In this document: positions 10,111 to 34,722 of the stretch, one piece after another
Layout: each line of letters opens with the position of its first letter
How positions within the stretch are numbered: the first letter of the stretch is position 1
Origin: a virus
Length of the DNA: 34,723 nucleotides
Virus record (IMG/VR): IMGVR_UViG_3300007346_000100
Location: 1-34,723 of that record
Reading direction: 5' to 3' (one strand)
Made by a program: the position numbers and the translations under genes
The notes under the pieces: model-generated
Seen by the model: the letters and a program-made list of their open reading frames with translations, nothing else
Database searches by the model: none
What the model was told of the DNA's origin: nothing

Positions 10111-10253
10111 TGGCTATGATAATTTGCGAAGTGTGCGATAGAGATAACTGGGCAGGCATACGGTGCTCTAATCACCGAGTATGCAATGCCTGCATTGATT
10201 CCATATTGGAAAAATACTTTGAGGGAGAATTAAATGAACGAAAACGAGAGTAA
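10110..10253 (+). CDS. Small zinc-finger protein (47 aa)
   Basis: ATG at 10110 overlaps the exonuclease stop in a TAATG, and the frame ends at 10253, running 20 bases into the chaperonin gene in another frame. It holds CEVC, then CSNHRVCNAC, a CxxC...CxxH/CxxC spacing like a small RING or B-box half, followed by a charged helix (SILEKYFEGELNERKRE). The cysteine spacing and exact gap filling support it. It may bind protein or nucleic acid; its role is unknown. Confidence 0.6.
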   Translation: MAMIICEVCDRDNWAGIRCSNHRVCNACIDSILEKYFEGELNERKRE

Positions 10254-11733
10254 TACGAGCGCAGTTGTCCATAACATTAGGGCGGCTAAGAGAGCAGTGA
10301 ACACGGTCAAGACAACACTTGGGCCGATGGGCATGGATAAAATGATGGTAGATGCCACCGGCAGCGTCATCGTAACGAATGATGGTGCAACCATTCTTCA
10401 AGAATTAGACATCAGCCACCCCGCTGCCAAAATGGTAGTTGAAGCGGCTAACACACAAGAAAGCATGTGTTATGACGGCACAACCAGTACCGTTGTTTTG
10501 GCTGGTGAATTGTTAGGTAACAGTGAACTGCTTTTCAACAAAGGATTACACGCTAACATCATTTGTCGTGGTTATAGAAAGGCATCTAAGTGGGCTACCG
10601 AGCACATTGAAGCAACATTGACAATTCCAGCGGAAGAACACCTTGCAATGGTCGCCAAAACATCAATCACAGGTAAAGCGTTAGAATCCAGCGTTGAACA
10701 TGTCAGTCAACTTTGCGTAGATGCTGTCAAAACTGCTGGTGGAGAATACGAGCGCATCCGTGTGCTTTGTCAACCCGGTGGGAGTTTAGACGATTCCTCC
10801 TGTTTTTCAGGGGTGGTTTTGCACAAGGAGTTCATGCTTCCGGCTATGCCGACTAACCCGACTGGAAAAGCCCTTCTCATCAACACCGGCCTGAGTGACA
10901 GCAAAAGCGATGACAATGTTCAACTTAACCTTGCTTCCGCAGCGGAATATCAACAATATCGCAGGCAATCAAGTCGTGACCAATGGCTTGAGAAGTCGCA
11001 AGTAATCATTAACTTACTCCCTGATGGGGGCGTTGTCTTTTGCCGAGATACTGTCAACGAAGTCGTTGCAGCGACCCTTGCAAAACAAGGCATTTCGCTG
11101 GTACACCGAATACCCGAAAGTGATATGACGGCTCTTTCTAAACTACTCGGAACATCAGTATCGCACAGCACCGATGACCTAACTGAGGCTGTTGATTGTG
11201 ATGTAGAATGTAAACAAATCGGTGATATGAAGTATGTCGTAGTAAGAGGTGGAGGTGAAGTTACCACACTGATTTTGCGTGGTGCTACCAAGCAAACACT
11301 TGATGAAACTGAGCGTGGATTTGAAGATGCACTTGGTGTGGTTTGCCTCGCTTACACTAATAATCAAGTTGTAGCCGGTGGAGGTTCTGCTTATCTTAAC
11401 GCAGCCTTATACTTACGCTCAAGAGCAGCCGAAGCGGGTGGCCGTGAGCAAATGGCAATTGAGGCTTTTGCCGATGCCCTTGAATCAATCCCTGCCACGA
11501 TTGCAGAGAACGCAGGTCATGACCCTCTTGATACGATTTTAACGCTACGAAACGAGCACATGGCTGGTCACACAGATGCAGGGCCGGACATTGAGAATGG
11601 CGGTGCATGTTACATGCTACAATGTGATGTTTACGAGCCTGTAGATTTGGTAAAGCAAGCCATTCAATCAGCCAGCGAAGTCACCATTAGTATTCTACGC
11701 ATTGATGACATCATTGGAAAACGAGGCGAATAG
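10234..11733 (+). CDS. Group II chaperonin (thermosome-type) subunit
   Basis: Protein of 499 aa, slightly shorter than the usual 530-550. Clear signatures are KTTLGPMGMDKMM (residues about 26-38), TNDGATILQELDISHPAAKM, YDGTTSTVVLAGELL, GVVLHKEF and PAMP at the apical domain entrance, ERGFEDALGVV (D365, the usual ATP-hydrolysis Asp) and NAGHDPLDTI. The canonical GDGTTT has become YDGTTS, keeping the catalytic Asp (D81) but replacing the first Gly with Tyr. The N-terminal extension and C-terminal tail of cellular subunits are reduced. It would form a ring folding viral or host proteins, possibly the very large virion protein on the other strand. It is the last protein gene of the early operon. 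Confidence 0.96.
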   Translation: MNENESNTSAVVHNIRAAKRAVNTVKTTLGPMGMDKMMVDATGSVIVTNDGATILQELDISHPAAKMVVEAANTQESMCYDGTTSTVVLAGELLGNSELLFNKGLHANIICRGYRKASKWATEHIEATLTIPAEEHLAMVAKTSITGKALESSVEHVSQLCVDAVKTAGGEYERIRVLCQPGGSLDDSSCFSGVVLHKEFMLPAMPTNPTGKALLINTGLSDSKSDDNVQLNLASAAEYQQYRRQSSRDQWLEKSQVIINLLPDGGVVFCRDTVNEVVAATLAKQGISLVHRIPESDMTALSKLLGTSVSHSTDDLTEAVDCDVECKQIGDMKYVVVRGGGEVTTLILRGATKQTLDETERGFEDALGVVCLAYTNNQVVAGGGSAYLNAALYLRSRAAEAGGREQMAIEAFADALESIPATIAENAGHDPLDTILTLRNEHMAGHTDAGPDIENGGACYMLQCDVYEPVDLVKQAIQSASEVTISILRIDDIIGKRGE

Positions 11734-15686: not shown

Positions 15687-17342
15687 TCATCCCCTCCTGT
15701 TACTCAAATAATAACTATGCACTGCCCCAATCTTAAGATTGTCATTTCTCGTTTCAGGGAAATCCTTCGTTGACAAGATGAAAACTTCTTCATTATCTTC
15801 TATAGAATGAACACTTGCAGACTTGATAGCCAATGTGTTTACACCAATAGAAGCAAGGTCAACATGACCCAATTTATTCCCATTGGCTGTATAGACGGCT
15901 GCGTTATCAGTCGCAAAAGCAGTAACAGCAGATGTTCCGTCAACTGCGAAAGATGTCGTTCCAATCGGATAACCACCTGAGTTATTGATAAGAACCCCCG
16001 TACTCTGTAAATTAAGACTTCCGTTGATGCTGTTACGGCTATTAACACCAATCGTAAACCCTACACCTCTGTTCATATCAACACGCTCGGAGATTTGCCA
16101 AGTGACTTTGAATTTGAAACCAAACGATGTAGCAAACTCTTCGGTTGAAAATTGACGATTGCGTTCCTCGTTTGCTTGTAAGTTACCACTTACATCTATT
16201 TCTTGAAATCGCTGCAACACATCTTCAAGCGTCACATCCACCGAATTCACATGCAATTCGCTGAGTTTTTCGTTGAGGTTGATTTTACTTCCAAGCACTA
16301 TGTAACGCTCGTTATCCGTTCTTGTTTGATACGATACCATATCACCCGGATGCATATGGCTCGCTGCTACGACATCTATCAATTTACGACTACCAGTAGC
16401 GTTCTTTGCCATTCTTAGCATGCGTTGACCGATAACTTTCGCACTGGCCTTTGTCACAGCCGTAGGCGCATGAATTCCACCGGGAACTTCGTTAATGCCA
16501 TCAGCCTGCCGACCAAAGTCATCTACTTGGATAACATTTTCATAATTGTTAGCGATAGTTTTCCCACGCACAATGACACGGTTCGGTGTATTTTCATTTA
16601 CCTCCTCAATCGTGCCTCCGAGAACACGGTTTTCACCGACAAAAAATTCACGCTCTACATGGTTTTGAGGGAAATAGCAGACATTTCCAAACCTGTCACT
16701 TTTAGGGCTAAAGCCATCATGCTTTGCTAAATAACGAAGTGCGCTAAATGCTTCAACGCCATAGAAATCTTGAGCCAAAAAAGTACCAGTGCTAACATTG
16801 GCCTTTACGCCATTGATGGCGCTGGTATTAGCCTTAGCGACACGATGAGCCAAATCGGATGTTCGCAAGCCCACGCCAATTTTTTGAGCGAAATGGATGG
16901 TTTTATCGGTAAAGCCGATGCTTCGTAAATCACGACCTTTTAGGTTTTCAACACGATACCTTGTTCCTTTTGTAGCGTCTTGTATTTGTGATACAGCAAG
17001 TAGTTGGTTAGGGTTTTCGCTTCCCATAACTAACGAAGGTAAAGTGCTTGAAGTGTTCACTTTATCTTTGTCAAAAAATACTGCACCTTCGTAACGCATA
17101 CCTTCTGTCGGATTGTGAAGCAAACGGATGGTATCTTCCTCTTCAATCAACTTGTATCGTCGTTCTGCGGTTGGTACAAAATCACTGGCGGTTGGTCGGC
17201 TAACAACAAAACCGTTGACATTTTTGGAATATTCTCCATGCCGCACAGCGTTATCTACGAAGCGTGGCTTACGCACGACTTTCATAACAGAATCTTGGTC
17301 AGCATCAAAGCGACCAGTTGAAAGATTCTTACCCAGTGTCAT
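15687..17342 (-). CDS. Probable tail hub/baseplate protein (551 aa)
   Basis: The start at 17342 is chosen because its ATG overlaps the upstream TGA (ATGA) and has gggaggg six bases upstream; the frame continues to 17378. The central part (about 190-330) contains AFSALRYLAKHDGFSPKSDRFG, a cluster of strands, and NRVIVRGKTIANNYENVIQVDD, resembling gpD/gp27-like hub proteins in which a ring of beta-barrels closes the tail tube. A C-terminal module (about 449-522) repeats in the giant protein. The two late regions DVTLEDVLQRFQE and VTWQISERVDM may be helical linkers. Hub identity is inferred from pattern and position, not from a diagnostic motif. Confidence 0.5.
   Translation of the reverse strand: MTLGKNLSTGRFDADQDSVMKVVRKPRFVDNAVRHGEYSKNVNGFVVSRPTASDFVPTAERRYKLIEEEDTIRLLHNPTEGMRYEGAVFFDKDKVNTSSTLPSLVMGSENPNQLLAVSQIQDATKGTRYRVENLKGRDLRSIGFTDKTIHFAQKIGVGLRTSDLAHRVAKANTSAINGVKANVSTGTFLAQDFYGVEAFSALRYLAKHDGFSPKSDRFGNVCYFPQNHVEREFFVGENRVLGGTIEEVNENTPNRVIVRGKTIANNYENVIQVDDFGRQADGINEVPGGIHAPTAVTKASAKVIGQRMLRMAKNATGSRKLIDVVAASHMHPGDMVSYQTRTDNERYIVLGSKINLNEKLSELHVNSVDVTLEDVLQRFQEIDVSGNLQANEERNRQFSTEEFATSFGFKFKVTWQISERVDMNRGVGFTIGVNSRNSINGSLNLQSTGVLINNSGGYPIGTTSFAVDGTSAVTAFATDNAAVYTANGNKLGHVDLASIGVNTLAIKSASVHSIEDNEEVFILSTKDFPETRNDNLKIGAVHSYYLSNRRG
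15776..15998 (-). repeat. Shared beta module, copy in the hub protein
   Basis: Encodes about residues 449-522, starting GVLINNSGGYPIG and ending EDNEEVFI, with FAVDG, TAFATDNAAVYTANG and KLGHV between. The giant protein carries a clearly related copy at 31091-31307. It is a protein-level repeat, not a long DNA identity. Confidence 0.6.
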
Positions 17343-17356
17343 ACGCTTCCCTCCCA
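17336..17356 (-). repeat. Partial third copy (21 bp) of the start-region repeat
   Basis: Identical over 21 bases to 17839-17859. It covers the Shine-Dalgarno site and the stop/start overlap in front of the hub gene, but not the following codons. It marks the end of the two-gene cassette. Confidence 0.85.
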
Positions 17357-17845
17357 TATACCACTTGGCTTTGTCCATACCAATTTATCAGGGTCAAGAT
17401 TTGTTTGATGTTGTGCAAACGACTCTTCAAAATCCATTGGCAATGATTCGTATTCTATATGCCCAAGTAAAGCAGATGAAGGGTCTATTGCCATTCGGTT
17501 AATTGGATTCGGGAGTTTCCCACGATAACCCATTACCATCCCCACAGGGTCACTCACTGCTGCAAAAGCCGAAGCCCCTTCGTGCGCTTGAGGTGTGTTT
17601 CCTTTAGCCCACCATGACCCCTTTCCGCTAATTGAAAAGGGCGCAATTTCTTCATAGGGGTTTGTATGCCATTTTTCAGCAGGTTGAGGTTGCACACCTT
17701 CACTCATGTTTTGAGCAACACGCCCACCGTGAATACCCCTAAAGGCCGTTACAGGCTCTTTACCGGGGTAGTCCTCTATGTAATTATACAACTTCATTTG
17801 TCGCATCTCTTTCAACACCAACCAAGCCTCCTCCATCGGTGTCAT
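17339..17845 (-). CDS. ADP-ribosyltransferase-like protein, copy A (168 aa)
   Basis: Starts at the ATG at 17845, which overlaps the stop of copy B. The first residues MTPMEEAWLVLK and the last WEGSV are shared with copy B. Between them is a small alpha/beta protein with TAFRGIHGG (R36), a long insert, AFAAVSDPVGMVMGYRGKLPNP and a LDPDKLVWTKP end. These align in order with YYHGTPS, AFVSDNPMSARAY, GMVIGVRGEP and IPPERLVFLPK of copy B. The first position is Arg rather than His, as in R-S-E type ADP-ribosyltransferases, and D152 lies where copy B has E120. It may be active in another mode, or degenerate. Location between tail genes suggests a virion or injected protein. Function is inferred from fold pattern only. 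Confidence 0.45.
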   Translation of the reverse strand: MTPMEEAWLVLKEMRQMKLYNYIEDYPGKEPVTAFRGIHGGRVAQNMSEGVQPQPAEKWHTNPYEEIAPFSISGKGSWWAKGNTPQAHEGASAFAAVSDPVGMVMGYRGKLPNPINRMAIDPSSALLGHIEYESLPMDFEESFAQHQTNLDPDKLVWTKPSGIWEGSV

Positions 17846-17852
17846 ACGCTTC
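17811..17852 (-). repeat. 42-bp direct repeat, copy 1 (start of copy A gene)
   Basis: Forty-two bases identical to 18257-18298. The unit holds part of the ribosome-binding region, the start codon and the codons for MTPMEEAWLVL. Differences begin abruptly on both sides. It could allow recombination that adds or removes the gene between the two copies. Confidence 0.9.
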
Positions 17853-18291
17853 CCTCCCACGGTGGAAGGCTCTTTAGCCATTCACGGTCAGGTCTTAAAT
17901 CACGATATGATTTAGGTAAAAAAACTAATCTTTCAGGCGGTATTCCTTGAGCAGTGGAAAAGTAACCCATATCTCCACCTTTCAACCCTTCAGGCTCACC
18001 TCTTACTCCAATCACCATACCGGGTGCAAAATCATCAGTATAAACATCTCCACCCGCATATGCTCTCGCTGACATAGGGTTGTCAGACACAAAGGCTTCA
18101 TTTCCCTTTTGACCTTGATTTACAAATGTATTTCTTGGTTCAATACCTGTACGCATAAATGAAAGTCTATCGGTACTTGGAGTACCATGATAGTATTTTA
18201 CTTCACCATAGGGGCTTGGTAAATCGGGGTGGTGTTCACCAAGTTTCGTTTGACGCTTCAACACCAACCAAGCCTCCTCCATCGGTGTCAT
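17842..18291 (-). CDS. ADP-ribosyltransferase-like protein, copy B (149 aa)
   Basis: ATG at 18291 lies 5 bases after the stop of the giant gene, with ggagagtga upstream; a GTG at 18300 in frame is an alternative. After the shared N-terminal peptide MTPMEEAWLVLK come VKYYHGTPS (H35), a GIEP turn, AFVSDNPMSARAYAGG (Y78), GMVIGVRG and GIPPERLVFLP (E120). H...Y...E in this order, with YHGT, a ...SxxxxxARxYA helix and xPPExL before the end, is the usual form of H-Y-E ADP-ribosyltransferase-fold proteins such as Tpt1-, Arr- and PARP-like enzymes. It would transfer ADP-ribose from NAD to a protein or nucleic acid. Tailed viruses such as T4 carry such enzymes in the virion. Family assignment by eye only. 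Confidence 0.5.
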   Translation of the reverse strand: MTPMEEAWLVLKRQTKLGEHHPDLPSPYGEVKYYHGTPSTDRLSFMRTGIEPRNTFVNQGQKGNEAFVSDNPMSARAYAGGDVYTDDFAPGMVIGVRGEPEGLKGGDMGYFSTAQGIPPERLVFLPKSYRDLRPDREWLKSLPPWEGSV

Positions 18292-18298
18292 ACGCTTC
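18257..18298 (-). repeat. 42-bp direct repeat, copy 2 (start of copy B gene)
   Basis: Identical to 17811-17852. It includes the start codon of copy B and its first eleven codons and touches the stop codon of the giant gene. Confidence 0.9.
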
Positions 18299-21200
18299 AC
18301 TCTCCACTATGGTCGCTCGTATTAAAAGATGCATCTTCTTTACTACCCTTCGGGTGCAAGGTTTGACTGAATCTTGGTTGAACGCTGTAATCACCTTCAT
18401 CATCGTCTATAGAACGACGACTTGCGTCGGCTCGGAAGTGTTCAAGCGTATTCTCCGACATAACCATCCTTGCAACAGGTGAACGAATATCCGACTTATC
18501 GTAACCCGTTACCTCAACACCTTGAATCTTCGGGCCTTGACTGTCGGGAACTGTCAAACTGGAAGTTGGGTCAAGCGTATAAACAGGTGCATACGGTGGT
18601 AAATTAGGTGTGCCTACTCTTGCACTTGGGGCATCGCTGACAAACAAACCGTATTTACCACCGGCTGTTGCTCTATAGAAATTAGCACCGCTCTGTGGCC
18701 CTATGGTATCAATGAATGCTCGGAACATTTGGCTATGTTTGTAATCAAGTCCGTGTGCTGGTCTATAGAGGAATTGAACAGTTTCATCGGTATAGTTGAC
18801 ATTTTCAAGAGTTGGGTCGTGGTCTGCGTCTTGATATGGGTTTGAAGATGAAGATGAACCGGCTTTACCCCAACCTTTGACATCAATCACACCATCATAC
18901 TTACTCCATTCAATGACATAAGTTCCACCGAGCGGCCACATAGCATGTGCATTAGAATGCTTGACTACTCCAGTTACAGGCTTGTCCGACCAGTCTAACG
19001 AAGTCATATCCAAATCTTTGAGTGTTTTACTACCAACATCGTATGCGCCTCTTAAATTTGTACGCTGACCTATCTCTCGGTCTGTGTGAAGGCTATGTGC
19101 TTCGGTAGACATAACGACATATTCACGACTTGTTCCATCATTGAGTTCAGCAAGCGTATCTACATCAAGTCCTAATCTAACATCGTTTCTTGATACAGCC
19201 TCAGCCCCTCTCGTATCAGCATTGACCGTTTCAGTCGCCTCACCTACATTGGCCGATGGCTTGAGCAAACCATCATCCGAATTCAAATCAACACGGTCAC
19301 TAATACCACGCTCAACTTCACCTGCTTGGAGAGCAAGATTACTTGGTCTTACAAGTCCTTGACCAACGATAGGCTCAGCCGTACTATGACTGAGAACCAA
19401 ACCCGTAGCGTCAAATCGCTCACTAACATCCATCAGCAAACTTTCGTTAAACACAGTCGGCCAGCGAACACCACGACCATCCCCTCTGTCACCGACTCTC
19501 AAAGCACTGGCAGGGTTGAACCAGTCAACTTTATCCATATTGGTCGCAGTATTGTTATCAGTGTTATCATTACCACTATATCGGTCATTTCCATCTCCAC
19601 CAAACAGAGCAGATGGTCGGTGTGAGACATTCGTATCGGCATAAGCATCTTCTGCATCCCAAGATGGCCGCAGCCCGAATCCTCTTACAGGGAAACGCCT
19701 GACATCTTCTCCACGAGTGTTGCCCCACCAATCTACCATGTAGTGTCGGTGTGCTTGTGCCAACTCTTCAATTCCTTGACCAGCCTCATCGTTAGGGAAC
19801 AAGCGGGTCGTTGTTGATGCGTTGCGTAGAGTTCGCACAGGGCAGCCGAATGGCCCAGTCATACGACGACCATCGCTGTAGCGAACCTGCCTTCCGATTT
19901 GGTCTTGCCCGACAAGACTTGACACTTGAGTAATCCGTTCTAAAATACCGACATACAGAGCATCAAAGTCCACGCCTGAATCCCAACCGTCTGTCTTAGA
20001 ATCGTGCTGGATAAGTGGCCCATTATAGTAGCCAAGCATAGCGTTACTGTTTGCTACTTCAAGCCAACCTCTTTCGTACATAGACCAGCGGGGGCGGTTA
20101 TACAATTGCCTCACGGCCATTCGGTAACCAAAGCATCGGTTTCTATCACTCGGTAATGACAAAGTAGCGATGCCTGTAGAATCTTGGTAAGTTCCGCAAT
20201 CCATACCGAAGGTATCACTTCCCCATCCGATAAGCGAATGACCATAAGACTCTAAACGACTTACTGCACCGCCACCGTGACTACCGCCTGCCCAAAATCC
20301 AAAGAAATTGTATTTATTTGAACCAACCGTTCCACCTTGATGCTCAAGTGATGCGTCAGCGTCAATTTGGGCTGCGGTGAATAATGCACCTGTGCCTTCG
20401 GGCTTAATCCATTTCATACCTAACGCAAATGGCCCTTTACTTGCTACATAGTTGAAGTCGTGGTAATGAATCGTTTCAAAGTGCTCAGGGATATGGTTGT
20501 AGCCTATCTTGTTGACAGGTGTATCAGCCGTACCGCTGTTACTGTAGTAGGCTCGGCTGGCATCGTCGCTATACCATGTATATGGCCGACCAAGATTAGG
20601 ATGCCACATACAGAGGAATGCATCGGGTGGGTTGAGTGAGTTGGTATCACGGCTACCATTGGCTAATTGAGGAAGGGAACGGGTCATGATGCTCTTTGTA
20701 GAATCAATATACATGGTAGAAGCGTCACCGTTATCATAAGCCTTTGTTATTTGTAGGATTGTACCTGACCCGATATTTGCCCAAAACAAAGGGTCAGCCG
20801 CCACTCCCTCAAAGACCGTCGCATCTCCGAGTGTAGGGTAAGCGAGCGTTCCTGTTCGGTTGGTATAAGTCGCAGTATAACGAATACCGTTTTTGTAATA
20901 CATCAACTTCTCACCGTAATAGGGTACGACTGGGAATAATTCGTTATTATCAACAGTGATTGTGTTGGCAACCGAATCGGCTGATGCAACAATACAGTTA
21001 GGGTTGATGCTCTTGATTCGCATATGTGGTTCGTATATGTCAAGATAACTTGTAGGATAGCCTGCGAGTGTCAATTGAGCACCAACTGAGCCGTAGCCAA
21101 CTCTACAGAATTCATAGTAGTTATCGGGCTTATGCCACTCTATGTGTCGGAATTTATCAGCAGCGGATGAGGCTGCCCCGTCTTTGTGCAAAATACCCCA

Positions 21201-24200
21201 CCACGGTATGGTAACTGTGTAACCCGGTGTGGCGCTTTGAAACATGCCGGGTCGGTAAGGTATGCTTCTGCGTGTGAAACTTGGACTTGAGGTTTCTTGA
21301 ACGCCAAGTGGATTGTATAACGCAAGTGGTGCTAAATTTGTAAACTGACTACCTGCGTCGGGTTCAATGTCCAAGATAACTTCGTTAAGTATAATCTCGC
21401 AACCACGCACATCAGCCATCATTGCTTCTGCGAGGATGAGTGCGTAAGCCCCTCGTGTTCCCATATCTTTCTCAATAGCAATAACCGTGTTGACTTGTTG
21501 ACCCGTTAATTCAGTAACTTTCGTACCCGCTTCGCTTGGTGCTTTTGTAGCCTCGCTATGATTGCGGTGGAATCCCTTCAACTGTTGCTTGAATACATTC
21601 GGCTGAATGATAATTTGGTAAGCACCTACTTCAAGTGGGTCGGGGAAATGGTTGTTGAATGTATAGGTGTTCGCTGCCTCAAGGACAAGTGTATGCCCTC
21701 CTTCTGCATTAATATCACCAGCGTTTGCACCGCTACTGGCGGCAATACCGTAGCCTTCATACTTGACTTTTGTCTCAGTTAGTAGAGTAAACGCACCACC
21801 ATGTATGTCACTTGGACTGAAAGCAGCGGTTGGAGTAGAGAACCAAATCAATGGGTCTTTTACAATTCCGTATGAACTGAGTGTTTCTGTCGTAGATAGC
21901 CGAGCAGCCTCAAGCGTACCGATGTAATTGTCACTCATTGGGCTGTAATTGGCACTTTGACAAGCCGTGTTAAGACTATACATGCGCTGGTAAGCAGGGT
22001 GTGCATAATGACCGGGCATCAATGCCATTGTGGGATTGACATAGTGATGACCCATTCTTGGAATCGGCATTGGTGTCATCTTTGGTGTTGATAGGTATGT
22101 GTAAGGAATAGATGGCTCTGTCATCGCACCAGTTGATGCTGGTAAAGAATCGTAGAGTTTGAACCAATTAGTAGCAGGCATATCAGGGCTTGCACCGCTG
22201 TATTCACTATGGTCACGCAATCTTCTTGCTGCAAACATACGAGTGCTTCCGGCAGGTAAATAGTAAGAAGGTACGACTTTGAGACCGCTCTTTCCTGTTA
22301 CGAAAGATACAAAGTCAGGGCTGTAAACGACACCTGTAAAAGTAGAACCGCTAACTCCTGTGTAAGAAGCAATGACACCTTTGTTTGTCGCAGGGTCATA
22401 GACTCGCATAAACCATCTTCCACCACTCTGTTCGGATGTATCTTGCCATACAGCGGATTCGGGCGCTGTTCCTACTGTAACGACACTACCTGAATAACTA
22501 CTGTAGTCTAATTCATCAACATCGTATCGGTGTGTCATTGATACACCCATGCGAGTTACATGGAAGAATAAACTACGGTCATGTGGTTCGTAAGCGGATT
22601 GTAGCGGTGCATCGCTACTATGGTCAGACCAACCTTCACTACTTGATGCTGGGAATTTGAGTCGGTTGTTAGCGACATCCGATGCGTCTTGGCTAAGATG
22701 TTCCCATCCGTTGTTTTCCCATGTAGGCCATAGGCGTGGGCCTGCGTACTCGTTTTCAAACATGTGACGAATTTGAGTCGCACCTTGAGCAGGGTGTTGT
22801 AGACCACCTGAACCAATTGTTTCGTTTTGATATGCTTGAATACGGTCAAAGCCGGAACGGACAACGATGTTGCCGGGAATTTCATCGGGGTTAGGTAAGC
22901 GGATTTTGAGATTCGGATTGACACCAGCGCCAGCCAACGCAGGTGCGAGTCCTTCAATGTCTCTATCACTGATATGCCTAAAGTCCATAATCACCGTACC
23001 AAGAGGACTTCCACCTTCCAAAATATGTTCTTGACCAGTATCGTCTACAACATTGACACTTTGAAATTGCTCGTGTTCGTTAGGAATCAGCAGTGCGTTT
23101 CTAATTTCAAGCGGGTGTTGCTCGGCTAATTGCGGATGTGATAGTTCCTGTGCTTGTATGATAGGGAACATAGCAGCGTTAGTGGTTTCAAAAGAAAACC
23201 GAACATTACCGAGAATCTTTTCACCGACCATTTTGTATTCAGCACCGTCTTTACGAGTGACAAAGGGTATCATACCTAATCCTCTTGCATTGACAGCAGG
23301 CATAGTGAGGCTACCGCCATCCATACGCTTCCAAACAACATGTTCGGGTAAGAAGTTACGAGCCGCACTTCTTGCATTGTAATAGCCGTAAAGTCCGTTA
23401 TGAGGCATTGTAGCCGAACTTGCACTGATGTTAAGATAGTGATTGCGACCTGTTATACCAATACATTCTACTGCATAAGTACCAGCATCTTCGTGGAATC
23501 CTGAATTCTTGACCACCGACTCATCCCAAAACAAATCACCTGTTGGGAAATTACAAGCGTTTGCTCGCACCATATCTCCATTTTGTATGGTTCTGTGTAA
23601 CTGAACATCAGTAGGCGCACTACCTACAGCAGGGTAGTCCGAAGATGAGGTTGGTAATGCGAATGCAGAGTGCATCTGTGCTTCAACATGAGGCCCAGCA
23701 GTGGCTGGCCCGACATAGCGACTTTTGTTGTGAACTGCATCAGTATCAATCTCAACTGTACCTGCGTGTGCAATGTTATTCGTTTGTGCAACATGTAACC
23801 AATCACCTGCACACGAAATACCATCTCTATCTGCTTTAGCAATGATAGGTAACTCGCTTTCGTGAGTGACCGCAACAAGATGTCGGCTAAATAAACCACT
23901 AATGCAATAGTCACTGTAAAAATCTATAGAAGGTGACTCTATGCTTCCAAACGGTGCGCTTCCACCAAAGCAAGACTCAGCAGCGCCATATGGATTGAAA
24001 CCTAAAAATGGATGCCAAGCACCGAGTCCAGCAGGGTGTAAGTTTGCCCCAATTTCATTACTCGCCTCGTATGAATTCAAGTAAGAATACGCTTCGCCAT
24101 TCCATCCAACTGCGCCAATCGGCTTTGTTCTATCTACAGCATCTAAAAATCCGCTAAAGTGAACTTGTGTCATATGGTCTCTTGACGAACCGGAGGCAGC

Positions 24201-27200
24201 GTTATTGAAACGGTGAGTACCTGCCTTAGTCCAAATATATGCTTTGTAAGTCGCATCGGGCGTAATAGCAAGCCGTGTTTGCGGATTCACAATGTTTGTG
24301 TCTGCTGTAATAGCGTTTACAGCCAATGTAAAAGTTCCAGCGGAATAACTGATATAAGGTGCAAAACCACTTACTGTTCCGTTACTGACTCTTATCCATC
24401 CGTAATTGGGATAAGTTGTCGCTACACTTGACACTGTAAGGCTTGCAGGTGTTACGCCTGATTCGGCTGTGTAACTTGATACATCAACCTCAACCCATCC
24501 GTATCGGTCTTGATTGTGGGCATTTTGCATACTTGGCATGAATGTTCCACCAATGGCCTTTAGCGGGTCTGTGCCGGGAAATGTATTGATAGCGCCACTT
24601 AATACTGCCCCAAGTTCTTCTGCGTTTTGACAACGAGTGGCATCAACGACGACGACATTATCAGCAACTGCTTGGTTGTTAGGCGTTCCACCATAGTATG
24701 ACAAATAGGCTTTAGCAAGTAATCCACATGGGCGGAATGAACTGGTGTTATACTTAGCACCAGCACCACTGTCAAGGAAGTTTCCGCTGACTGGATTCTT
24801 TGGATTCTTTCGTACATGGTCATCAAGGAAATGTCCACCGGGATGATAGCCGCCATCCATGTGCCAAATGACAGAAGATTTACGAGTCTTTGGATAAGTC
24901 GCACTACCAATCGCATTACCACTAATATCGCTGAATACATAACTAAATGGATGATAATGCTTAGGTAATCCTGTTGTAGCACCATCTGTACCTTCAAAGA
25001 AAAAGGCGCTTGTATAGGGCTGTGAATAAGTCCTTGATGATGATGCATTGACAGACGGGAAGCCTTTGGTAGGCTGCCAGTTCATTACATAATTGAATCC
25101 TTGTGCATGGTTCTTTTGGAAGAAAGTTGTCATTGGTAAATGAGCAGCGGCACTACTTTCACGATTCAAACCACTATGTTCTGTAATGTCACCATTTGCT
25201 AACTGATTTGGTAAAAACGAATCATCACCAGTTTTACCTCCAATATAGATAGGAACAGCACTGTAACCATTTCCTTGAGTTACAATACTCGCACCTTGTG
25301 GTTCAGTAGATGCGCTATTGTGAGGGAAAGCCTGACCCGGCCCAAAAATGATGTACGAAGTTTGTTGTGCATTATTTCCTTCCGCACTATATCGTGCGTG
25401 AGGGTGAGCAAATCGTAGAATGATTGGACTTGGTAAGTTGACACTTACTTCGTTATTTGCGCCTGTATCTGTGTATGTCAGTCCTGTAACACCTGTGTTT
25501 GCACCCTTTGCCATGTCAAAGGGTAAAATCGCATCTTGGTTGAAGAACGGTGGATTGTTTTGACCTTTATGTTGGTCAAGATACGGTGTGCCGGGAAACA
25601 TTGCCATCATCGCATTTGTATCAATAAGTGCAAATGAGCCAGCGATTTCGCCCACATTTTGGAATCCAGCAGAACCAGTCGGGCCACTTGAGTATGGGTG
25701 AGTATAGAAATCCGAATAGTCGTTTTGAGTACCGTCATTAATGTCAACGACAACGCCACTAAAGCCTCCACCGAAGTAAAGAGGCACAAAATGGTCAGGG
25801 CTGTCTCTTGCGCCTCTAAAGTAAAGCAAAGGGTTACTCTGCTTACTACCAGCGATGCGAATACCATCTGTTTCTTTTGCACTTCGTAAATTCGTGCTAC
25901 GCTTGAAAAATACTTCACCTGCTGCAATATGGAATGAACCGGATAAACCCACATTCGTATCAAATTTAAAATCCGTAAGACTTGAAGCACCGGGGTCACT
26001 GCGAACTATGGCGTATTCGTCATCATTATGCCACACAATGATAGGCTCTCCCCAAGAATTGGGGTCGTCGCAAGCAGGCTTAGCAAGCAATGCCATAGAT
26101 TGTCCGGTAGCGAGTGAAAATTTACCTGAGCCGGAGGAATAAGAACCTACAACAAGACAAGGTGAATCTACTCTTGGAATGATGTGGTCACCGGGCGCAT
26201 CAGTATAATTTTCACCACGAAGATTTCGTTGCCATGTGGTCACATCTACGATGTTGTTTTGACTATCTACTAATACAGGCGTAGCGGTGTTTGCATTCGT
26301 TCCTCTGTATTTTGTACTAACATGTAATACTGTCTTAGGAATATACCCAATATCAAGGCGAGTACCGTTATCAACTTCCGCAGTTGTTAATCCACCGAGA
26401 TGAGCAGTAGTAACGGCTTCTGTTGAAACACCGTCAAGAATGCCCCAATCTTTAGCAACCGAAGCCTCAAACAAGTTACTGAGAGGAATACTTGCGTCAC
26501 TTCTTACTTTAATACGGATAGCGGTAGCACTCACACCCCATTCACCTAATGTCTTACCATCGGGTGCAAACATGTTAGTGCAATCAAAACTGGTAAAGTC
26601 TACATTGTCTTGAGTAGCGCCATCTGTATTGATAGCATAGGCTACGGCTGCTGCAATGACTTCATCAGTAAGAAGGCTGGTAAAGTTGATTCTTGGACTG
26701 AGATACCAGTCAGTGTCGCTGTAGTTCGCAGCACCACCGACTACTCCGAAGAACTTGTGAGTTCCAGTAGCATCATCGTGTGTGCGACTTGTGTAATAGA
26801 AAGTTAATCCTTGAACACCACTTTGAGTGGATAACTGGAACATACCGCTTTCAGGGAAGCCAAGATAACCAAGAAGGTCAGGATGAGAATTCAACAATGC
26901 TTCCGAGCCATCATAAGGTGCATCCAATGTCACCGTCATTGTGCCACTGGATAAGGCGGTTGTAGCCAACACACCTACAACGGGTGAAGGATATGTGTTC
27001 CAAAGATTACCTTTGAAATCAATAAGCGTACCGCCTGTTTTTTCTCCACACACTTCTCCACTACCCACCATGTGACGACCAATGGTAAAGCCACCTTGAC
27101 TTACATCTCTATCATCAAAATGAATGATAACTTCTTCATCAAGGGTTGGTGGTAAGAATGTATTTTCGCCAGCAAACTTTTGTCCGTATTGCTTGTAAAG

Positions 27201-30200
27201 TAGGCGAATAGTATGACTACTACCTCTATGGTCATCAAAACGAATTCCGTAAAGTGGGTTATTACCAATATTGGCCGACTTCATATCATTAGAAGGAATA
27301 TAACCATCTTGATAGCCTTCTGTCGTAAAGGTCATCGGACTACTGGCGTTTGTTGTATTCCCGTAGCGACTTACATTAATCGTTCCATCGTTAGTGAATC
27401 CCCAGCGACTTAAATCGGGTGACCAGCCGGGAATACCAGCCTGCGTCATACCACCGAAGTTGATTCTTGCCTTAGCCTTCGTACCTACACGAAGCCCGTC
27501 TACAAGAACTGATGCAGGGCTTTTTGTTTCAAAGGATTCGTTAAGAAGCGTATTTGCATTTCTACCCGACACCATTTCAGTGTTGGCTTCGGCTAACACC
27601 CCTTGACTGGCAATAATATCAGCGCCTAAGTGTAAGTTATTGGTTGTCTCATCATCAGCAAATTCGGGCGGTAAATACTCTTTGAGTGTTGTAATCGGTG
27701 CAAATGGTCTACCGAATCGGTTAATTGGCATTGGCGCAGGGTGCATGTTTTCACCACTGATTTCGTCAGGCTGACACCAATAGTTGCGGAATCGCCCACC
27801 GTGTCCGATGAGGTATTGAGGTCTGTATGGTGTTTGAGCACGACTACTATCAAGCCAAGCACAGAAATTTCTTCCACCTGCACCCGGCACAGTTGAATGT
27901 ATGATAATTGAAAAGCCTTGATTGCCATCCGAATCAAGAACTACTCTACCTAAATGAGCACGAACATATCCCATATGCGTTCCTCTATCGTGACTTGAGA
28001 ATGCTTTCTTTACATCCCAAAATGGTGCTGGGTCATGAGTAGAAGCCGTAGCAGCAAAGTCAGCGTATTGGTGCTTGGAAGCAGGGTCATCGTTCATCGT
28101 TCCTAAGAATTGGTCGTTAGGTCGTCGTGCGTGTGTTTTGCCATTCTTTGCACCTGCTTGGTTAATTAGACGGACTACTTCTCTCGCTGCTGATTGAATA
28201 TTTGTCACTCCATCTCGTAGCGAAACCTCACCCAAATCCACACTCAATCTTCTTACAAAGTCCATATCAGTCCAATGGTCAAGGTTGTTCATCCGTGTAT
28301 CACTCAATACCAAAGAAGTGTTACGAATTCCTTTCATGGCTAAGAATGCTGGAATAACTCGTGTTCCATCCGGTGTATCAAAGAAAGTAGATTGTTCCTT
28401 AACTCCATCTTCAAATTCGTCATGCTTCGCTGCCGCCTCATCAGTGTTGACCGTAGAATCATTTGTACGATTTGAATAACCATTATCGTCTAACCCAGCA
28501 ACGCCACCAACTGAATGAGTAGATAAACCGCCACTTGTGCTTTCGTTCCAATCCGAGTTGTGCGAATACGCTGCCTCAATGAAATCCGAATCTTCTGTTG
28601 TATTGAGCATTTTATTTTGACTTGGGAAGCCAGCGGCAACATCCAGCAAAGAACCACTGGCAGCGACGCTGTTATCTATTTCCCCTGTTTTCAACTTGCT
28701 ATCCGAACCGATAGATGCCGTAGCAGGGCTGGTTTGGACTTGCATGTGAATATCTTGGAATGCGATGAACTCACGGTCATGTTCAACATCATAGAGAAGA
28801 ACTCTTGCGAATTTATCTGTGCATTGATAAGGGTCAAGATAAGCCACGACTGGAGGAGTAGTGGATAGTCCAAGCGTATCGTAGTTCAACTCAATTGTTT
28901 TATTGATATGCTGCACAAGATTTTGAGCCGTTTCTATACAACTGTCTCCAATGAGAAAATTCTCCATCGGTATGCTGTCTCTCGGATTAGCATCAAATGC
29001 ACCGACTCCACCAGTAAAGCCTGACCAAACCTCTGCCTCGTTAAGTGTTCCTCTGCTTTTACAGAATAAGCCTTCAATGGCATGTGGATTGGTATAATGC
29101 ATGTTCATCCAAACCGTATCGCCTTGTCGCAATCCTCCGACACAGAATGGATGCGCCCACGCTCTGTTAAGGAAAGTCTCTTTGACTTTAGGATAAGTAC
29201 CAGCCGATGTAGCATACAAATCTTCTACATATATTTCACTCCCAACAACGGGGCTAAAGCCAGCATCAGGACTTACGATGGTAAGTGTGTTGTCAGTTCT
29301 CCCATCATAAAAACCACGATGCACAGTGCCACTGGTATCTCTCCATGCAACTCTAAATTTGTAATCGGTATCGGGGCTATCTTTAGGGAAAAGAGAAGCA
29401 TCGTCTAATGTTAATGATGTAGCAGGGCTACCTGTAAGTGAAATGACAGTTGCTGTTGGTCGCTTTGATTGAATCTTCGGTAAATGCGGATTGCTTTTTG
29501 GCCCAGCCCTCAATTCAATGGCGCTTACATATTGCTTTAGCCCATAGTCTACATTCCCACCTTGAGTCATGACATTTGAGCGGTCATAGTAGAACGAGCG
29601 ACGACTTTCATATCCCGCACTATCAAGTGTAGGATTATCAGCAATACCGCTGTAATTCATATCTTGGTAACTCGGTGACGAAAGTAAGTAAGCACCTACT
29701 TTCAAATCTCTAAAAAAGTTCTTGCTGGAAATATAATCGTCACCAGCAGAACCAACGACAGTGAGGTAATTATTTGTCAAATCTCTTGCCGAATAAATCA
29801 CCCATTCTCCGTTGGCTAAGTAGGCTCTCCTGTATCGTGCGCTACCTCCGAGATTAGCAACAGTAACCGGAGGGGCGGATGGTATTGGGAAAATGTCAGC
29901 ATCTTCTACATAAATTCGGTGAACCGCAGAATCATAAGGTCGTGTAACTTTCGTACCTGACCGATGTGTTTTATTTTGAATTGTATAAGAAAATGGCCCA
30001 AACACTTCGGGGTCTTTGGGTGAAACTGCATCGGCTCTCCTCCCAACTGGATTAGGATTCCAAGAATGCGCTGTGTGAGTTGCATCAATATGAATCTTCA
30101 TGCTGTTATCAGGGCCGGGAAAAATACCTTTGTCGGGCTTGTCAAAAAAGAATTCTTCAAACAAAGGAATTTCTACCAATGCACGAGTGCTTGCATATTG

Positions 30201-33200
30201 TGTTCCGAGTTGATAGTCATGCTGAACAGTATCAAGAGTTTGAAATAATCGGTCATTGATGGTCGTTCCATCACTGCACATAGTTTCTTCACCAAACTTA
30301 TCGTCTACATGCAGCACACTACCGGCAGTGATACCTGTTGATGTAATCCAATCAGCAAGTGAGTCTGCCTCCGAGCCATCAGCGAGAATAAACTGACCCG
30401 TTCCGAGATGCCCTGTACCCGATGCAAATGTAAAAGTGTCACCTGTTTTGCTGGTATATTCGGCTTTTGAAAATCGTGTACCTTCACCTTTGTTCTTTGG
30501 CATTTCAAGATAAATGAAGCCTTTTGCTGGGAAACAGTAAGTTCCCCATGATTGCAAATCCTCTGTTCGGTTATTGAGGGGAGTCACTGTAACTGTTGTG
30601 CTGGTCGTGGATGCAACAGCGATTTGACAGTTTTGACGAGTATTCCAAGCCAATCGTGCTAACGGACTTGGGTCAAATGTTTCTTTAGTATTGATAGCCC
30701 CTTGTCCAGCACCACCAAGCGTCATCGTGACAACTGGCGCACCGGGCATGATTTCTTTGACGATATGACTATCAGGTGCTGCTGAACCTTTGACATATAC
30801 ACTGGATGATGAAAGGTCGCTGGTAACACCATGCGCTCGCATAATATGGTTACCATCCGCATCATCGGAGAAAGATAAAACTCTTCCACGAGAAACCAAT
30901 CGTTCAATTGAGATACGATTCGCTCGCTCTGTTGTAGAAATCATCTTGGCTAACATGGTAAGTCTGCTTCGGTCACTGGGTTGAATGACTAATCGCATGA
31001 CATTTTCATTTGATGTATGCTCAATAATGTCAAAGTATTCATTGACACAAGTGCTTTGGTTACTTGTTCCTATGCCAAAGATTTGCGGCTGATTAAATAA
31101 TTCGTCATTATCCACAACCGAATCGGATGTTCCTCCACCAATGGTAACAGTTGTTGCAGTTACGCCAGTGACTGTACCGAGATTTGTTCCATTAGATTTG
31201 TAAAGAATATCACCGATAGCAAATACTGTAGTCGCATCTACACCATCAACTGTCATCGCACTAATAGTAGAAGATGCATAACCCGATGAATTGTTAATAT
31301 AAACACCGCTTCGTAAACGAATACCGTTACTGGCTCGTTGGTATCGTATATCAGCCACTTCTTCAAACTGACTTACTGACTTGTTACTTCTTACAAATAC
31401 ACGGTGGAATACCGAACTGCGTGATGATAGTTCCGATGTAGCCACAGTGATTGCCTGTGGTGGTTTGTTTGGAGGGTCGGTTGAAGTAAGAGGTAAATAG
31501 TTGATAGGGCATAGGTCGTAGTTTAACACATTCTCTGCAATCAACCCTTCGGAGTTATCGCCTTCTAAATCTCCATCTTGAAACATACCCATGCTGGGCT
31601 TTTCAAACTCAATGATACCTCCGGGCGAAAAGAGTTCCAACTCAGCAATTGCCATTGATTCCTTGATTAAATCAAGGATTGAATACGAGCCAGTGAGAAT
31701 GGTGCTTACTTTTGGCAAGGTTTTTGTTACCATGAGTTTTGGAGTTTGGCTGATGGTTCTTACGATAGCACCTGTAGTAGCAAGAGTAACGAAAGCCGCA
31801 TCAGCGGCAGAGTCAAGCGTCAAAGTGTTTGTCGCATAATCTATAATAGCGTAAACAGTTACAGTCGCAGAAGCAGGTGTATCACCGATACGGATAAGTC
31901 CAGCCGATATTCGTTGACCATCATAGCCAAACGGCTTAACGCTTTGAAGAGTTAATATAGTGTCGCCACCACTAATGTTTGCAGTTAGCCTTGAGGCTGC
32001 GCCAATTGTAAATTCTGTGCCTTCTAAATCAATGGCATTATAGTGGATTTGAACAAAAGGTGCATAATCATAGTCAGCAAGATTTGGCACTGACAATGTA
32101 GCGATTCTACTTTCACTTGATGGTATAATAAATCGGGTGTTACCGCTTTCGCTATTGGTTGGTAGGGATTTGAGTAAGAAAGGTGTTGGGTCAAAGTTAA
32201 TACCACCGATGGCGATGATGTCACGCTGAGTATCATCAATGCCTGACATACCGTTCTCAACTAACAAATTAACAGTGCTGGATGATACAATATTGCTAAG
32301 TTTAATCGGCCCATGCACATCGTAACTTGACACGATACTATTGATTGGAACAGTGCTACGAAGGTCGTTGTATTGGGCTGGGAAAGTCGCTTCAATGACA
32401 TCAGCCCCCATGTCTAATTTCTTTTCAACCACATGCGATTGAGTAGGTGGTAAAAGACCCATAAACGGATGACTGGTAACATGATTGTAGATATGACGAC
32501 CACAGTGGCCGGTCAAGTAAGTAGAACCCATGTTCGTCGTGCTGGCAGAAAACTTGTTGTATTCGTGACTATCAATCGCCATACTTAATGAGAACATCAT
32601 GCCGTGATTTTCAAAATCACTTTCGTCAATGCATATCTGCCCTTGTCGCTGAGAAAACTGAGTGCCACTGCCATATGGTTGGAACTCGTTACCGTTACCT
32701 GCATCTACAATACAGTCACCTGTAATAATGACAAATTGACCAGCATCGTGATTCATCAATGCCCCTCTTCTCCCACTGGTCGGATTTGCACCAAAGTCCA
32801 AGTGAATGGACTCAACTGTAATTGTTCCAGCACTTGCATCAATAGACATGAGTCGCATGCGCTCAGGTGCTTTGTTCGTAGGTTTACCTGTGTTTTGATT
32901 ATATCCGAGCGGATTAACCAAAATATTGTAAGGAACTTTAGGGATGGCAACTGTCGTCGTTGAAGAAGCCGCATATACTGTTAATGAGTAATCACCGGAA
33001 CTGTAAGGACTGGTTGTGAAATCTATAGCAGTAAGTCCACTTTGACCTGCTAATTCATCCAATAATGCTTGGGCATTACTCGTACCTATACTGATGACTG
33101 ATGTAGCCGATGTAGATGCGGTAATAGATGGTGTTGTCGTTATGAGGTCAAACGGCTCAATTGGCTCTTCAAACCTCCAAAGCCCAAGCGTATTATCACT

Positions 33201-33872: not shown

Positions 33873-33873
33873 A

Positions 33874-34722
33874 TCATACACCTATTACAAAGTCTGTGGC
33901 TACCAAAAGCATAGTGAATGCGTAGTAGTTGTTGCCAGCATCATACCGCACATGAAGTTTCTCAGGCATAATTCTAATCCCACCATCATTACCGTGAGCC
34001 TCTGTACCGAGCGTAACAAGCGTATCTTCAATAACCGATTTAAGAAAACCAAAAATAGATACTATTTCTCCAGCAATGGGTGTATTTTCAATCCAATCAA
34101 ATAGACCCTCTTTGTCATCATCATCAATGTTACCGCCTACTGAGTTTATGACCATTTGATTCATCAACTCCGAAGCCGACCTTGTATTTGCAAGTGCGCC
34201 TTTTTCTGTAGCAGGTATGTCTCCGAAGGTTAAGAAAAAGTTTCTCGCAATACCTGTCACACCCGAACTGGTGATAAGACTGTCGTAAGGGATTTGTATT
34301 CCACGAAACATATCAATATTTTTATTTGAATTAGAAACTAAACCAATCAAATCTTGCACTTTATCTCCAGCCGATTTTTTAGCACCATTATCAATAAGAT
34401 TATCCGCCTGCACAACTTGTACCATATCACGAAGTGCTGGACTAAAGGGGTAAGGGTCACTTACTGGATTATCAGGGATATACTTCTGTTCAATGACAAC
34501 GATGGATTCGTATCTTGATACTTTGAAAGCATCAGGTAAAGTTTGCCCTTGCTCATTGACTTTGAAACTAAAATTAGTGATGTTCCCAGTAAGTTGCAAA
34601 GCATCTTCTATAAGACTCGCCATAATCACGGCAGGGTTTTTACCATTAGTTGTCGCAATACCTTTGATGGGAATTAAAACCACTGCATCAAAGTGATAGG
34701 CATCTTCTTTATCTCGTGTATA
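33874..34722 (-). CDS. Unknown tail-associated protein (5' part beyond window)
   Basis: The frame is open to the right edge of the window. A GTG at 34683 could start it, but the codons before it (YTRDKEDAYHFDA) read as coding sequence, so the true start is probably outside. About 283 residues are visible. It has strands near the beginning (VVLIPIKGI, ITNFSFKVNEQG, SIVVIEQKYIPD), a helical, Asn- and Asp-rich middle, a short hydrophobic segment (IAGEIVSIFGFLKSVI) and a beta end (YYAFTMLLVATDFVIGV). The family is not recognised. Lying directly in front of the giant gene in the late transcript, it is probably a tail or baseplate component. No transmembrane helix is convincing. Confidence 0.6.
   Translation of the reverse strand, partial: YTRDKEDAYHFDAVVLIPIKGIATTNGKNPAVIMASLIEDALQLTGNITNFSFKVNEQGQTLPDAFKVSRYESIVVIEQKYIPDNPVSDPYPFSPALRDMVQVVQADNLIDNGAKKSAGDKVQDLIGLVSNSNKNIDMFRGIQIPYDSLITSSGVTGIARNFFLTFGDIPATEKGALANTRSASELMNQMVINSVGGNIDDDDKEGLFDWIENTPIAGEIVSIFGFLKSVIEDTLVTLGTEAHGNDGGIRIMPEKLHVRYDAGNNYYAFTMLLVATDFVIGV

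Follow-up and report, generated by a model that had tools for sequence, protein, structure and literature searches.

A ten-residue helical tag shared by two adjacent genes of an archaeal virus is a possible cargo address for virion effectors

Introduction

In the stretch of viral DNA analyzed here, a 34,723-nucleotide IMG/VR record (IMGVR_UViG_3300007346_000100, hereafter the window), two adjacent genes, A and B, encode proteins that begin with the same 12 residues and end with the same five (WEGSV). A sequence-only reading had pointed this out, and both the adjacency and the shared ends were confirmed. Overall, the two proteins are about 29% identical, and the question is what the shared ends mean. 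The same reading had taken them as a sign that A and B are tandem paralogues of an ADP-ribosyltransferase (ART) family, encoded inside the tail gene cluster of an archaeal virus. The features used in the analysis are the following.

17842 to 18291, minus strand: gene B, 149 aa, start ATG at 18291, from the ORF list; predicted ADP-ribosyltransferase fold
17339 to 17845, minus strand: gene A, 168 aa, start ATG at 17845, from the ORF list; distant relative of B
18297 to 33881, minus strand: 5194-aa ORF, from the ORF list, presumed tail protein, directly upstream of gene B
15687 to 17378, minus strand: 563-aa ORF, probable start at 17342, following A in the late block, unrelated to A and B
10234 to 11733, plus strand: group II-type chaperonin, in the replication half, which is opposite to that of A and B
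17842 to 17859, minus strand: WEGSV and stop codon of B, coinciding with the ribosome-binding site of gene A and its ATGA overlap
17339 to 17356, minus strand: WEGSV and stop codon of A, coinciding with the ribosome-binding site of the 563-aa ORF and its ATGA overlap
18256 to 18291, minus strand: tag of B, MTPMEEAWLVLK, PSSM score of 31.1; recurrent motif, helix 3-14 in the AF2 model
17810 to 17845, minus strand: tag of A, MTPMEEAWLVLK, 12 residues identical to the tag of B and DNA nearly identical
18199 to 18255, minus strand: leader of the B domain, RQTKLGEHHPDLPSPYGEV, conserved in alignments of the B family
17750 to 17809, minus strand: leader of the A domain, EMRQMKLYNYIEDYPGKEPV, nearly invariant in the A family; the sequence L020:8527-8967 bridges it to B
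18187 to 18189, minus strand: H35 of B, invariant in a 14-member alignment
18058 to 18060, minus strand: Y78 of B, present in almost every homologue; the aligned residue of A is F94
17932 to 17934, minus strand: E120 of B, within IPPERL; E, Q or K among homologues

Results

The shared WEGSV ending was traced to the DNA rather than to the protein. The codons of WEGSV and the stop (TGG GAG GGA AGC GTA TGA) contain a Shine-Dalgarno sequence, GGAGGG, and the ATGA stop/start overlap by which B runs into A and A into the 563-aa ORF. The 14-mer GTGTCATACGCTTC (plus strand) is found at three gene starts, at 18285 for B, at 17839 for A and at 17336 for the 563-aa gene, which is unrelated to them, and the WEGSV-coding stretch likewise lies upstream of the 563-aa gene, with a near copy upstream of B. 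Since the 14-mer recurs even before an unrelated gene, the WEGSV match is a translational signal, and its reading as protein homology was rejected. Nor do the first 12 residues argue for paralogy, because they also occur on many unrelated proteins. The placement of A and B inside the virion gene block was supported; within it, the pair lies near tail genes rather than head genes.

The claim that B is an ADP-ribosyltransferase was borne out by its predicted fold and by profile searches. The AF2 model of B (pLDDT of 75), compared with known structures (Foldseek/VIA), matched Tpt1/KptA best (E value of 7e-4, Z score of 10.2), and the matches listed were ART-fold proteins; viral structures also yielded ART-type matches. 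The hits listed for the B family profile against the PDB were nearly all ARTs, mostly KptA, PARP and ART-toxin chains, with weak E values, and Pfam PARP matched one member of the family at 6e-5. Searches of Pfam and PHROGs with A and B alone gave no significant match, and a search of INPHARED for a B-type ART and for a tagged polyprotein gave no convincing one. The residues proposed as an H-Y-E triad, H35, Y78 and E120, are all present in B, and the first two held up as family features, H35 being invariant among the 14 aligned sequences and Y78 nearly so, whereas the last position varies between E, Q and K. On these alignments, B is better filed as H-Y-x than as H-Y-E, the window copy itself having E. 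The B family has in common with Tpt1/KptA and the PARP ART domains the predicted ART fold, the HGT strand with an invariant His and an AxxYA helix, but differs from both in the variable last residue of the triad. Unlike Tpt1/KptA, B lacks the N-terminal RNA-binding lobe, and its 149 residues align just to residues 89 to 177 of Tpt1. We describe B as a predicted ART-fold enzyme of the Tpt1/PARP-like (H-Y-x) type, with a putative enzymatic activity and a putative target.

About 30 homologues of A were found. With tag and tail removed, blastp with A or B did not retrieve the other protein directly. Tag-free profiles of the two families (17 and 15 sequences) were nevertheless aligned by hhalign with a probability of 94 and an E value of 1e-7, and profiles of the core only, without the leader, gave 1e-4, against 0.047 for the best of 40 column shuffles. 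Core-only HMM searches, from A to B and from B to A, did not retrieve the other family. Given that the tag-free profiles align well above the shuffles, the homology of A and B is real but distant. A bridge between the families is found at L020:8527-8967, where an A-like leader (KLYNWIEDYP) is joined to YHGS.

Whether A is itself an ART received a mixed answer. R36 and the Asp (in LDPDKL) that had been reported for A are present, and the profile homology to B argues for the assignment. The AF2 model of A, on the other hand, is of low confidence (pLDDT of 36.5), and its profile found no ART in the PDB, only weak unrelated matches to zona pellucida, choline transporter and ryanodine receptor proteins. 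With the model having failed and no ART among the PDB matches, distant homology to B is the one argument that remains. Judged from the aligned sequences, A is probably an ART, though still an unproven one, in which R36 and F94 take the places of H35 and Y78 of B. A-type genes lie next to B-like genes again in L191, L195, L201 and L205. A third subtype (L201:3502-4080, L205:3502-4095, L191:2322-2978, L118:3533-4102 and L102:8759-9358) has the tag, a RQTTLGEFHPDFPSP leader and a core without YHGT that ends in GVRMPI...IPPERLV; it is possibly a degenerate ART.

The shared N terminus of A and B contains a 10-residue tag, PM[DE]xAWxxLK. The first lead was a 600-aa ORF (L011:2029-3828) with an A homologue at its end and GEPMD-type copies of this motif between its domains. 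A DNA pattern for the tag matched at least 119 viral stretches, against five for the reversed pattern, and the matches fall in open frames, at N termini, in linkers and at C termini. After de-duplication, about 207 tagged ORFs, most of them from the morphogenesis half of related viruses, carried 255 tags, of which 97 were N-terminal, 129 internal and 29 C-terminal, the last being followed by 2 to 11 residues (2 to 6 in most). Different codons specify the same tag residues in different contigs. The composition of the tag, with [ST/GE]-P-M-[DE] at its start, is that of an N-capped amphipathic helix, and the AF2 model of B predicts it to be helical.

The segments of these ORFs that lie outside the tags formed 118 cargo clusters, a count that, like that of the tags, depends on the chosen thresholds (PSSM score above 18, blastp 1e-3), so that there are probably fewer unrelated cargo families than this. 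Domains recognized among the cargo include ART, Dam methylase (2.8e-17), HD (3e-6) and SLOG (7e-6), with weak matches to GNAT and SAM lyase. Several tags may occur in one polyprotein: eight in 1205 aa in L055/L170, three in L011 and three in L116, where two ART-type domains and an HD domain are joined in one polypeptide (L116:10954-12891). The polyprotein at L170:1-3615 is at least 1205 aa long, with its eight tags spaced 100 to 340 aa apart and with segments that resemble GNAT, ParB-like (GHHR) and, weakly, SAM lyase domains. The lysine- and glycine-rich first segment of L011:2029-3828 matches DUF5872 (1e-9) and recurs on several tagged ORFs. ORFs with a DHSG-type C-terminal ending, as in the 5194-aa ORF that occupies almost half of the window, lie upstream of cargo genes in L006, L007, L009, L012 and L013.

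In a collection of cellular genomes covering 84,980 species, searched with two strict patterns, the tight internal tag pattern gave no match and the N-terminal pattern gave one, in a Dehalococcoidales MAG, which was judged to be due to chance. No convincing tag was found in HVTV-1 and vir519. HVTV-1, a cultured haloarchaeal relative, has a repeated motif of its own (for example, VYVDSPDEAPEGVQVQQGDRGGLWY) in three late proteins, one of them annotated as “zeta toxin” (genes 113, 115 and 116; L293:9266, 13686, 17800 and 17911), which may serve as a counterpart of the tag in a cultivable virus.

Tags and domains were compared across loci. The A domains of the window and of L009-L014 are 83 to 90% identical and carry different tags (PMEEAWLVLK, PIDKAWVFLK and PMDAAWTLLK), whereas A and B, despite their low overall identity, have the same tag in the window. 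Because closely similar domains bear different tags and diverged domains the same one, tags and domains appear, from their sequences, to be exchanged separately. Tag DNA is slightly more alike within loci than between loci (0.677 versus 0.642; 0 of 500 permutations), and part of this likeness may be due to genome composition.

The suggestion that the virus is archaeal was supported. A chaperonin scored above the cut-off in 29 of 50 tagged contigs and a prohead serine protease in 30, one or the other being present in 47 at an E value of 0.001, and the window encodes a chaperonin and a B-family polymerase of its own. These genes fit magroviruses, which are viruses of Poseidoniales archaea (PMC12999244; PMC10160649). 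The window is a 34.7-kb fragment with the capsid genes outside it, and its relatives of about 100 kb fit the profile of the Magrovirales: tailed viruses that encode PolB, a chaperonin and a prohead protease and whose modules are transcribed in opposite directions. Magroviruses rank among the most abundant viruses of the ocean and, to our knowledge, are known from metagenomes only.

Contigs found by their tags are a biased sample, and contigs were therefore selected again by the major capsid protein of genome G028 alone, from the best 80 matches, which gave 43 contigs of at least 20 kb that were searched with a relaxed tag pattern. As G028 is itself tagged and the best 80 matches were taken, this sample represents relatives of G028 rather than all magroviruses. 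At least one tag was found in 27 of the 43 contigs, with no hits in the control, and tag and capsid gene share a strand in all 64 cases (strands compared by hand). About a third of the contigs lack the DNA pattern; some of these are fragments, and degenerate tags such as MFEKAWRFLK are missed by the pattern. Two near-complete genomes have 21 and 11 tags, all in the morphogenesis half, with none in the replication half and none in reversed sequences. In G028, the tagged genes lead to the terminase, portal, head protease and capsid genes; the portal, protease and capsid ORFs themselves are untagged. Among the tagged ORFs of the two mapped genomes, just one breaks the strand rule: a 484-aa ORF of G028 (L170:5809-7260) that carries tags at residues 4 and 393 and is encoded on the other strand than the late genes.

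Discussion

We propose that A and B are small magrovirus effectors. Each consists of a domain preceded by a 10-residue N-capped amphipathic helix, PM[DE]xAWxxLK. The tag would bind a component of the assembling head, which would lead to the packing of tagged proteins alongside the genome and to their delivery into the cell infected next. There, B would ADP-ribosylate a target of the host (or of the virus). We assign this reading a probability of about 0.5. The tag is taken as a cargo address on account of the parallel with phage T4, the effector-like cargo and the helical nature of the tag; by analogy with T4, head binding, packaging and delivery would be the most likely course of events, and the cargo types, as far as their sequences tell, fit injected effectors. 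More tentatively, and with odds a little short of even, one position-independent helix of 10 residues would label a swappable arsenal of virion effectors, in which any domain that gains the tag becomes cargo of the particle. Counting against the cargo address are the internal and C-terminal tags, the tag-free HVTV-1, the location of A and B among tail genes, the untagged third of the capsid-selected contigs, the opposite-strand ORF of G028 and the variable last catalytic residue of B.

The tag could instead be a processing site, each copy of which is cut by the prohead protease so that single domains are freed from polyproteins. This would account for the tags that separate domains in L055/L170, L011 and L116, it agrees with the prohead serine protease in 30 of the 50 tagged contigs, and T4 offers a precedent in targeting sequences that are removed by its prohead protease (PMC9026906). 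Cutting a terminal tag, as in A and B, would however release just about 10 residues, the 29 C-terminal tags leave merely 2 to 11 residues, and the residue pair after the tag is not conserved. Moreover, the common GE/SE is followed by proline, a poor P1′ residue for proteases. We consider processing an unlikely explanation, although targeting and processing are compatible and the tag can serve both. It is similarly doubtful that the tag docks another partner, such as the virus-encoded group II chaperonin, a tail protein or some host factor, with no relation to head packaging: 29 of the 50 tagged contigs encode a chaperonin, T4-type propeptides can recruit chaperonins too (PMC10052503), and A and B sit among tail genes, but the portal, protease and capsid ORFs of G028 are untagged, and a general folding tag is not expected to be limited to accessory cargo of the late block.

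Two further explanations concern the origin of the shared ends, and we hold both to be very improbable. A hot spot of recombination at the 5′ end, or a recent conversion event between the neighboring genes, with no function at the protein level, would explain why A and B have almost the same tag DNA in front of differing domains, why tag DNA is slightly more alike within loci and why A homologues with closely similar domains bear differing tags. Against it, the motif is conserved as protein, with the same residues drawn from different codons in different contigs, and stays in frame whether it is N-terminal, internal or C-terminal; the tag may still be spread by recombination. That A and B are simply a tandem pair of ART paralogues whose common N terminus reflects common ancestry is in keeping with the tag-free profile homology, the bridge sequence L020:8527-8967 and the A-type and B-like tandem neighbors in L191, L195, L201 and L205. 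The tag is nonetheless found on domains that have no mutual similarity, and A homologues that are 80 to 90% identical in the domain have different tags. Common ancestry as the explanation of the shared ends was ruled out by the tag on unrelated domains and by the ribosome-binding site, while as the source of the distant similarity between the A and B domains it stands.

If the cargo-address reading is true, the injected arsenal of uncultured archaeal viruses would become readable from sequence, with the tag at either end of a protein or inside a polyprotein, and a tag that marks cargo would yield candidate host-takeover proteins for hundreds of genomes in this way. The tag gives the inferred packaging into virions a concrete, testable basis that goes beyond the sequence-only reading. 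A literature search, which was not exhaustive, found no mention of the tag motif or of ARTs in magroviruses.

Among known systems, encapsulin cargo-loading peptides are short, often C-terminal, and direct cargo into a shell of HK97 fold. The magrovirus tag resembles them as a short peptide proposed to direct cargo into a shell; it differs in sequence, its shell binding is putative, and encapsulin cargo is cellular rather than viral. The cargo itself recalls the polyvalent proteins known from phages and plasmids (PMC5512222) and NAD/ADPr effectors (PMC9503650), which are known or predicted to be packaged. As in the systems described there, ART, methylase, HD, SLOG and GNAT-like domains are fused or adjacent in the late block. 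In the parts of these sources consulted, no common short motif between domains is reported, whereas here each domain is tagged, and magrovirus cargo, unlike theirs, exists in both single-domain and multidomain versions. Several disparate domains in one late-block polypeptide, the mark of a polyvalent protein, are found in relatives, in L116:10954-12891 and in the L055/L170 polyprotein; A and B themselves are single-domain proteins, unlike polyvalent proteins.

The parallel for the proposed mechanism is that of the capsid-targeting sequences of T4 IPI-III. In T4, an N-terminal stretch of ten residues is enough to direct IPIII to the head, an identical targeting peptide stands on the diverged protein IPII, the ADP-ribosyltransferase Alt is packed and injected, and the targeting sequences are cut off by the prohead protease (PMC9026906). 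The magrovirus tag is likewise about 10 residues long, identical on diverged neighbors and found on unrelated proteins of the late block; its cargo includes an ART, as does that of T4 with Alt, and it belongs to a tailed virus with a prohead protease and a head gene block. The two differ in that the viruses are of different lineages, that the magrovirus tag is also internal or C-terminal (129 and 29 tags, respectively), is repeated in polyproteins and has many more cargo types, and that its head targeting is presumed from sequence. If it marks cargo, the tag would extend the capsid-targeting idea of T4 to archaeal viruses.
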